From Methanothermococcus okinawensis IH1 (lineage in GTDB: Archaea > AGJL01 > Methanococci > Methanococcales > Methanococcaceae), in NCBI RefSeq assembly GCF_000179575.2, contig NC_015636.1, positions 783,495-847,494 on the forward strand: 64,000 bases of DNA, given 5' to 3'. A program made the position numbers and the translations under genes. A model generated the notes under the pieces. The model saw only the letters and a list, made by a program, of their open reading frames with translations. It did no database searches and was not told where the DNA came from. Each line of letters starts with the position of its first letter. The first letter of the stretch is position 1. This document shows, one piece after another, positions 19,761 through 22,255 of the stretch.

Positions 19761-20192
19761 ATGATAAGAAAAAGTAGAAAAATCACAAAGTTAAGAGGAA
19801 GTAGAACCTGTGGATACGGTGCTGCTAAAAAGCACAGAGGCGCAGGTCATAGAGGAGGTAGAGGTTTGGCAGGAGGTCATAAACACAAATGGCTTCACAT
19901 AGTCAAATACATGCCAGACCACTTTGGAAAATATGGATTTAAAAGACATCCAAGTTTGGTTAAAAAATTAAATACCATTAACTTGGGAGATATTGACGAA
20001 TTAGTATCCAAAAACAAGGATGCATTTGAAGTTGAAGATGGAAAAATTGTTGTTGATGTAACAGCATTTGAATATGAAAAAGTTCTTGGAAAAGGTAAAT
20101 TATCCTGTCCAATGATTATAAAAGCAGTGGAATTCTCAGAAGGAGCAAAAGAAAAAATAGAATCTGCTGGTGGAGAGTTTGTTGAATTGTAA
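19761..20192 (+). CDS. rpl15: Ribosomal protein uL15
   Basis: This 143-residue late-assembly large-subunit protein has the expected glycine/arginine-rich N-terminus (RKITKLRGSRTCGYGAAKKHRGAGHRGGRG, GLAGGHKHKW) and a C-terminal L15e/L18e-like domain. It is the last ribosomal gene of the cluster; secY normally follows directly in archaea. Here a 734-base interval with a GC-rich element intervenes. Confidence 0.96.
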   Translation: MIRKSRKITKLRGSRTCGYGAAKKHRGAGHRGGRGLAGGHKHKWLHIVKYMPDHFGKYGFKRHPSLVKKLNTINLGDIDELVSKNKDAFEVEDGKIVVDVTAFEYEKVLGKGKLSCPMIIKAVEFSEGAKEKIESAGGEFVEL

Positions 20193-20504
20193 TTCAATTA
20201 AAACAAATCTTTTGATTATATTATTGCTCTTTCTTATTTTTAATAAATATGATGATGTTAGTCTAAATCTTACATCTAAAAACAATTTTAATGCATTTAA
20301 ATATAATAATATTTTTTAATAAATATTCCTATTTTTTATAGTTTTTTATCAATAGTTATGTTTTTTATGTTTTATAGTTTTGGAATCGTGTATATGGATG
20401 ATGGGATAAATAAAATTTATAATATGATAATGAAATAAAAATAATAAAGATAAACCAATAAGGTAAAATCGAAAAAATAAAAATTAATAAGTTGATAATT
20501 TCTT

Positions 20505-20790
20505 TATAGTGAACTACCCCGACCTTACGGACGGAGCTTCCTGCTTCCGACCCGTAGTCTCCACAGGCGTCACTTCGGACTGTCCCAGCCCTAGGCTACC
20601 TTTTCTTTTCGGTAGCAATAAATATTGTGGGAATAGTTATATAAATAATTTTCGGCTTTCATCCTCCCGTAGCGAAGCGGAGGGCTACAATTAGAAAAAC
20701 CTTCGGTTTTTGTTGCTCGCTTACTTCGTAAGCGAAATCCGAAGGATTTTTGTTTAATCCCTTACGGAAGGGGACTTCTCGCCGAAATAA
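20505..20790 (+). mobile_element. GC-rich multi-hairpin element between rpl15 and secY, IS200/IS605-remnant-like
   Basis: About 285 bases of roughly 50% GC sit in spacer DNA that is otherwise about 80% AT. The left part (GTGAACTACCCCGACC... at 20509) resembles, from memory, the subterminal sequence next to IS200/IS605-IS1341 (tnpB) elements; GGCTTTCATCCTCCCG at 20654 resembles the opposite end. No transposase remains. Perfect hairpins follow each other: 20595-20616 (GCTACC/GGTAGC), 20663-20683 (CCTCC/GGAGG), 20695-20711, 20717-20735, 20735-20749 and 20758-20774. TTTCGGC at 20650-20656 pairs with GCCGAAA at 20781-20787 and encloses the last five hairpins. It may be a MITE-like remnant, a structured RNA, or both. 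The strand is arbitrary. Confidence 0.55.
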
Positions 20791-20926
20791 GTTAATAAGT
20801 TAAAATTTAATGATTTTATAAACAACAATCTTTATTAATTGTTATATATCTCATTAAAATAATAATAAGAAATATTTGGGAGTAAATTTCACTTATTTTT
20901 AATATTAAAAATACATGGTGATACAT

Positions 20927-22255
20927 TTGGAGGAATTTCTTCATAAAATAAGACCTATACTTGAATATATCCCAGAAGTGAAGAGACCTGAAAGGGACAT
21001 AACATTTAAAGAAAAGTTGAAATGGACAGGAATGGTTCTTGTATTGTATTTTATTATGGGAACAATTGATGTATATACAGGAGGAGCTCAGATTCCACCA
21101 GTCTTTGAATTCTGGCAAACTGTGACTGCATCTAAAATGGGAACATTGATTACATTAGGTATTGGGCCTATTGTTACCGCAGGAATTATCATGCAGCTTT
21201 TGGTCGGCTCTGAAATTATAAAATTGGATTTATCCATTCCAACCAATAGGGCAATGTTTCAGGGACTTCAAAAATTATTTGCAATATTTATGTGTTTCAT
21301 AGAAGCCATAATGTTTGTTGGTGCAGGTGCATTTGGTCCATTATCGCCACTTCTAATGTTGGTATTGGTTCTTCAATTGGCAATAGGAGCCATACTCTTA
21401 ATATATCTTGATGAGATAGTTTCAAGGTATGGTATTGGTTCAGGTATTGGTCTTTTCATTGCTGCGGGAGTTTCCCAAACAATATTCGTAGGGACTTTTG
21501 GTCCAGATGGATACCTGTGGAAATTCTTCAATGCCCTTATGCAAGGTTCTTTGGGAACTGCATTGGAATTCATACTGCCAATACTGGGAACAATAGTGGT
21601 ATTCTTTATAGTAGTATATGCTGAAAGTATGAGGGTAGAGATTCCACTTGCACATGGAAGAGTAAGAGGTGCCGTAGGTAAATACCCTATAAAATTTGTA
21701 TATGTATCAAACCTACCTGTTATTCTTACAGTAGCATTATTTGCAAATATCCAATTATGGGGCATGTTCCTTGAAAAAATGGGATTCCCAATATTGGGAC
21801 ATTATGTAAATGGTAGGGCAGCAGATGGTTTAGCATATTATTTCTCCACACCTTATGGATTAACAAGCGTAATTTCTGACCCATTACATGCCATATTTTA
21901 CACAATAATGATGATGGTATTTTGTGTAATTTTTGGGATATTCTGGGTTGAAACATCAGGTCTTGATGCAAAATCTATGGCAAAAAGACTTGGAAGTCTT
22001 GACATGGCAATTAAAGGATTTAGAAAAAGCACAAAATCTATAGAGCAGAGATTAAAAAGATATATAAAACCTATTACTGTTATGAGCTCAGTATTTATAG
22101 GACTACTTGCAGCAGGTGCTAATTTCACAGGAGCTCTTGGTGGAGGAACTGGGGTTTTGCTTACAGTTTCCATAGTTTATAGAATGTATGAACAGCTTGT
22201 TCAAGAACAGGTTTCAGAGTTGCATCCTGCACTTGCAAAGTTGTTAAAAAAATAG
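20927..22255 (+). CDS. secY: Preprotein translocase subunit SecY
   Basis: This 442-residue protein forms the channel of the Sec translocon, with ten transmembrane segments beginning around LKWTGMVLVLYFIMGTIDVY. The plug and pore region IGPIVTAGIIMQLLVGSEIIKLD and the cytoplasmic loop RVRGAVGKYPIKFVYVSNLPVIL are recognisable. TTG 20927, preceded by GGTGATACA, gives MEEFLHKIRPILEYIPEVKRP, the normal archaeal N-terminus; the GTG/ATG upstream at 20915 is inside the ribosome-binding site. Its partner SecG is at 29104-29268. Confidence 0.95.
   Translation: MEEFLHKIRPILEYIPEVKRPERDITFKEKLKWTGMVLVLYFIMGTIDVYTGGAQIPPVFEFWQTVTASKMGTLITLGIGPIVTAGIIMQLLVGSEIIKLDLSIPTNRAMFQGLQKLFAIFMCFIEAIMFVGAGAFGPLSPLLMLVLVLQLAIGAILLIYLDEIVSRYGIGSGIGLFIAAGVSQTIFVGTFGPDGYLWKFFNALMQGSLGTALEFILPILGTIVVFFIVVYAESMRVEIPLAHGRVRGAVGKYPIKFVYVSNLPVILTVALFANIQLWGMFLEKMGFPILGHYVNGRAADGLAYYFSTPYGLTSVISDPLHAIFYTIMMMVFCVIFGIFWVETSGLDAKSMAKRLGSLDMAIKGFRKSTKSIEQRLKRYIKPITVMSSVFIGLLAAGANFTGALGGGTGVLLTVSIVYRMYEQLVQEQVSELHPALAKLLKK

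Follow-up and report, generated by a model that had tools for sequence, protein, structure and literature searches.

A gene-less IS200/IS605-type element between rpl15 and secY of Methanothermococcus okinawensis and the double-hairpin modules nested in its left end

What is the GC-rich block of hairpins that stands between rpl15 and secY in the spc operon of Methanothermococcus okinawensis IH1, and does it belong to the operon? The block lies in a 64,000-nucleotide stretch of contig NC_015636.1 (positions 783,495 to 847,494), referred to here as the window; the contig comprises 1,662,525 bases of a two-contig genome of 1,677,455 bases, and the named close relatives of the SecY encoded in the window are from Methanothermococcus. 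An initial annotation had read the block as one multi-branched RNA or as a single unit bounded by inverted repeats, and had seen in it a likeness to IS200/IS605 ends. The block is real and lies where it had been placed, with exact bounds of 20509-20790 that were set by other copies.

A transposase-free IS200/IS605-type element in the rpl15-secY spacer

The 282 bp at 20509-20790 are a transposase-free IS200/IS605-type element (PATE/MITE) on the minus strand, encoding no protein, an identity directly visible from ends and a target that are common to other copies, to tnpB elements and to tnpA+tnpB elements. Elements of the IS200/IS605 type integrate on the 3' side of a short, fixed target sequence, which is not duplicated (PMC8612924). 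Here, the target is the pentanucleotide TTAAC (20791-20795, minus strand), kept at the left flank: TTAAC stands before 27 of 28 distinct left ends and TCAAC before the remaining one. The left end (LE; 20759-20790, minus strand), TTATTTCGGCGAGAAGTCCCCTTCCGTAAGGG, contains a subterminal palindrome and is 91-93% identical over 23-29 nt to IS605-type left ends of the same genome; it was also aligned with other left ends by eye. The right end (RE; 20509-20618, minus strand) terminates in TTCAC, and all 24 distinct right ends from the loci compared finish in TCAC and then run into unrelated flanks; because the ends were found with patterns from the same family, invariance within the pattern is partly by construction, while the flanking TTAAC lies outside it. 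In distinct copies no repeat was seen across the element, i.e., there is no target-site duplication. Imperfect palindromes lie subterminally at both ends, the one in the LE being broken by nested modules, and the single-stranded DNA fold of the whole element beats 200 of 200 dinucleotide shuffles (z –3.55). The suspected IS200/IS605 connection was thus borne out: what is the left part of the block is, on the minus strand, the right end of the element.

Related elements were found both at home and in other genomes. The ends of 20509-20790 recur in the M. okinawensis genome, but a second whole copy does not. Two resident tnpB elements (L011 and L012) and two tnpB-less derivatives (L002 and L003) share its LE/RE architecture; their left end, TTATTCCGCAAGAAGTCCCCTTCCGTAAGGG, and their right end, ...GGGTAATTCAC, are the counterparts of those of 20509-20790. 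The TnpB of L012 matches the OrfB_IS605 and Cas12f1-like_TNB domains and an HTH domain, and the tnpB of L011 is an open frame of only 245 codons. The tnpB-less elements L002 (C2:1288044) and L003 (C2:1024989) are about 390 bp long and are of the resident tnpB subfamily. The ends are also related to those of a Y1 tnpA element (L142): in genome G009, a same-ended element carries both tnpB and a tnpA that is split over two frames by frameshift. Six copies of the 142-bp core (20509-20650), 97-99% identical, are spread over three genomes besides that of M. okinawensis, namely G009 (two), G019 (one) and G015 (three), and G015 has six further core copies at 77-95% identity. Complete copies in other genomes occupy different loci, with T(T/C)AAC at the left. 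The exact 41-nt right-end pattern was not found in viral contigs. Against Rfam, which the initial annotation had proposed to scan, no element or module locus matched a family above its gathering score; weak matches of the window to CRISPR-repeat and sRNA families fell far below threshold and were dismissed. As a separate observation, one locus (L085; G015:C30:141-298 and beyond) joins a tnpB-type left end, TTATTCCGC, to a core of the type found in the window, and this apparent hybrid suggests recombination between element subfamilies.

The position of the element just upstream of secY and its strong folding would suit an RNA that is native to the spc operon and regulates secY in cis. We consider this highly improbable, and rejected it on the empty spacers of 21 relatives: in all 21 compared, no copy of the element is present between rpl15 and secY, an absence judged per whole spacer, as the spacer diverges too fast for alignment of the empty site base by base. 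Copies of the element lie elsewhere in other genomes, and its conserved core points against the operon. The case that the initial annotation had held would speak for a regulatory RNA, i.e., a spacer conserved in all relatives, was thus not seen. Its statement that the element splits rpl15 from secY holds in that the element lies in the spacer; yet it makes up only 282 nt of a 734-nt gap, and the spacers of the 21 relatives, all without the element, range from 35 to 653 nt. The length of this gap varies naturally within the family. The initial annotation had suggested that the element could alter secY expression or set a transcription boundary; since the element sits in a long and variable spacer, a mild effect on secY expression, or none, would be as likely as a strong one.

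Two features of the spacer deserve mention in their own right. A small open frame of about 45 aa (20179-20319, plus strand), in the +1 frame and with the hydrophobic core LIILLLFLIF, overlaps rpl15 at its end. A frame open for 42-98 codons past the rpl15 stop is found in 16 of 16 genomes with spacers longer than 200 nt (L059-L079 spacers) and is missing where the spacer is short. Its core has the fewest pairwise differences at codon position 2 (301, versus 820 and 728), as expected for a membrane peptide, and the frame is a possible secY leader peptide. Further downstream, a TTG at 20927 (plus strand), preceded by GGTGAT, matches the secY start of relatives, and the listed ATG at 20915 (plus strand) is probably not the true start.

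The right end and the proposed history of the element

We regard it as very probable that 20509-20790 is a non-autonomous IS200/IS605 element (PATE) with the history of movement, RNA and nesting set out below, taken jointly. In ISDra2, the guide RNA of TnpB comes from the right end of the element (PMC8612924). The RE of 20509-20790 contains an omegaRNA-like region, judged by its likeness to the right ends of tnpB elements, with which it has in common GGGCTGGGA.AGTCC, CCTG.GGAG, CAGGAAGC and a terminal hairpin. The fold of the right-end RNA has a subterminal hairpin, CTCCG-T-CC-GTAA-GG-T-CGGGG (20517-20536, minus strand), and only 1 of 200 shuffles folds as well as the 110-nt right-end stretch (z –2.83). 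An archaeal-type BRE/TATA sequence, CGAAAATTATTTATATAA (20637-20654, minus strand), read from the sequence and kept in the element family, stands little over 20 bases ahead of a GCTACC...GGTAGC hairpin in the core and may act as a promoter. By analogy with the ISDra2 mechanism (PMC8612924), the flank at 20493-20508 (minus strand), TATAAAGAAATTATCA, would by its position be the guide. A structural alignment of PATE and tnpB right ends was mis-registered, with weak support from covariation and with wrong boundaries for one tnpB fragment.

With these features, a history can be proposed. The element entered the rpl15-secY spacer of a Methanothermococcus by a minus-strand insertion 3' of TTAAC. Its movement was most likely that of a single-stranded circle, with the cuts made by a Y1 TnpA acting in trans; the genome no longer has a TnpA. 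Its own TATA box may drive an omegaRNA-like transcript with the adjacent flank as guide, and a TnpB bound to such a guide could cut the empty donor joint and so help to retain the element. Small double-hairpin repeats of a separate family entered the left-end palindrome and produced the multi-hairpin look. We take the chances that a TnpB uses the RNA of this element to be evenly poised; the resident TnpB may not use its right end, because the right-end core is 83 nt long in 20509-20790 versus 131 nt in the resident tnpB elements.

The same evidence bears on a second reading, in which the element is a dead remnant, i.e., a tnpB element in decay, reduced by an internal deletion, whose RNA has no function and whose core is conserved by recent spread and not by selection. 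No Y1_Tnp match was found in the M. okinawensis genome, which makes present mobility doubtful, and together with the frameshifted tnpA of G009 and the single copy of the subfamily in its own genome this gives the dead-remnant reading some substance. However, the LE and RE are intact, and the core, with its TATA box and right end, has hardly changed in the copies of three other genomes, in contrast to the variable left end. A dead remnant is a possibility that we hold to be less likely than a PATE with a functional right end.

Double-hairpin modules in the left end and across the Methanococci

The left end varies because hairpins have been inserted into it. As had been described, TTTCGGC at 20650-20656 and GCCGAAA at 20781-20787 do pair, with the later hairpins enclosed between them, but the view of these as one multi-branched RNA or a single inverted-repeat-bounded unit has to be given up: several hairpins of the left end entered it separately, as nested insertions, and differ from one copy to the next. 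The shortest copies (G019:1571904 and G009:588786) have a simple palindrome for a left end; other copies carry extra hairpins in or just behind this palindrome, different in each. In the window, a double-hairpin module of 47 nt (20690-20736, minus strand; 61 bits with model R1) is a clean insertion relative to G015:C54:34367-34602: the GGATTT/TGTAGCC of that copy is broken here by CGCTTAC...CTAAT. The 47-nt module splits an older module of the same family (20663-20758, minus strand) into 20663-20689 and 20737-20758, as comparison of copies indicates; an unsplit copy (L082:500-550) scores 40.2 bits with R1. At G009:92071, an insert of the CGCTTAC...CTAAT type is interrupted in turn by another insert, and in the tnpB element L011 the left palindrome is broken by an insert between CCGT and AAGGGAGGGG.

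The modules are 44-55 nt long and follow one plan with two separate hairpins: a hairpin of 8 bp with a 3-nt loop, a GAGC(A/T)AC linker, then a second hairpin, of 9 bp, and a tail close to CTAAT. R1, a covariance model built from eight module copies and used at E≤0.01, gave at least 428 matches in 21 of the 36 genomes of a phylum-level set (a sum over the table, with the best 150 candidates per genome scored), weak ones of which may include other hairpins. The matches number at least 9 in the M. okinawensis genome, 58 in G009, 50 in G015, 89 in G019, 42 in G020 and 48 in G021, with smaller numbers in a second family; fifteen of the 36 genomes had no match among their best 150 candidates. Nor were matches found in seven archaeal genomes outside the group, in a search without a positive control. 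Compensatory change in the module hairpins is overwhelming: 101 distinct aligned modules have 98.9% standard pairs, compared to 76.6% in shuffles, and 14 of 17 pairs have changed on both sides, values that no shuffle reaches; the alignment was fitted to the structure and leans towards it, and slid controls collapse. The open-access literature yielded no description of double hairpins in Methanococci, which is no proof of novelty.

Module sites are enriched within palindromes. With the flanks joined, 25 of 82 non-redundant module sites lie in a perfect hairpin (stem ≥6), versus 8.5% of random positions in the same loci (about 7 expected), in a set biased to IS ends, as some loci were picked for matching the element in the window. 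A stand-alone hairpin array (L149:660-790) was also observed adjoining an IS605-type left end, not obviously within an IS element.

Modules in genes and their counterparts elsewhere

Frames open through modules were found in genes for MtnA (L179), CobN (L163), acylphosphatase (L202 and L212), a LarC-like protein (L226), an AcsV/RamA-like protein (L183), an MJ1010-like ATPase (L160, L162, L232 and L234), a polyferredoxin (L201) and the C-termini of TnpB (L180 and L215). In MtnA, the module is an exact 48-nt insertion relative to 9 of 10 orthologues by DNA alignment; the predicted insert peptide in the G009 protein is IACGSKRATKTKGFRLI, and at this site the M. okinawensis orthologue carries 9 extra nucleotides of its own. 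The cases other than MtnA were judged from open frames and profiles. Taking 2 from the module length leaves a multiple of three in 11 of the 13 clear coding cases, compared with 16 of 57 among the non-coding ones (Fisher p 0.0003, or 0.003 once orthologues are removed), a supporting and not an independent statistic, since the coding class was defined by frames open through the module, which favours in-frame lengths. One listed case (L193) may be a spurious frame. In the acylphosphatase genes, which come from two genera, the module stands at the same place, directly ahead of the conserved VQ-VGFR loop. Pfam and NCBIfam recognition of the module-bearing protein starts just after the insert, and a PDB search with it returned nothing.

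Short palindromic pairs in many copies, without clear target duplication, recall REP sequences moved by a RAYT-type Y1 transposase. We disfavoured this model for the modules, and think it unlikely, on account of the module-rich, single-contig genomes G019 (89 modules) and G021 (48), which have no Y1_Tnp match; insertion within genes is, moreover, atypical of REPs. A fairly probable reading is that Methanococci harbour an undescribed, order-wide family of mobile double-hairpin repeats of 44-55 nt that prefer palindromes, nest in one another and in IS605-type elements, and can enter conserved genes in frame (adding about 14-17 residues) by means of some enzyme.

Both the element and the modules have likenesses among known systems. 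Gene-less IS605-type derivatives in Haloquadratum walsbyi were named palindrome-associated transposable elements, or PATEs (PMC3119063). According to that report, they resemble 20509-20790 in having no terminal inverted repeats, IS605-related palindromes near both ends, no target duplication and too little length for a transposase; the element described here comes from a different archaeal class, differs in sequence, and has a conserved TATA box and an omegaRNA-like right end. ISDra2 and IS608 are like it in their subterminal palindromes and in their duplication-free insertion 3' of a short, fixed target, but their targets are TTGAT or TTAC and not TTAAC, and 20509-20790 is gene-less (PMC8612924). 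The element itself is thus a further member of an already known kind. For the modules, a likeness in the Haloquadratum report is SMR-A, which enters palindromes close to the ends of PATEs and IS605-type elements; like the modules, it is transposase-free, enters palindromes without target duplication and is mobilised in an enigmatic way (PMC3119063). As described there, SMR-A is about 110 bp long with terminal inverted repeats, whereas the modules are double hairpins of 44-55 nt, are spread across an order and also lie in frame within genes. Two further likenesses are by description and not by sequence. Rickettsia palindromic elements are palindromic repeats in frame in unrelated protein-coding genes, as the modules are; they are about 150 bp long and bacterial, the modules being a third of this size and archaeal (PMC10969869). 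Short double hairpins in AT-rich genomes are also seen in fungal and sponge mitochondria, as double-hairpin elements and GC clusters that insert repeatedly, sometimes in genes and sometimes in tandem, but these are mitochondrial (PMC2800124).

The double-hairpin family matters more than the element in which it was met. If the reading given here is true, the modules would be an archaeal counterpart both of the palindromic elements known from Rickettsia and of the small mobile repeats that have been called "enigmatic" in Haloquadratum. With a size of 44-55 nt and as many as about 90 copies in one single-contig genome, they would make repeat movement testable in culturable methanogens, and the in-frame copies in enzymes such as MtnA would be a natural experiment on the tolerance of proteins to inserted peptides.
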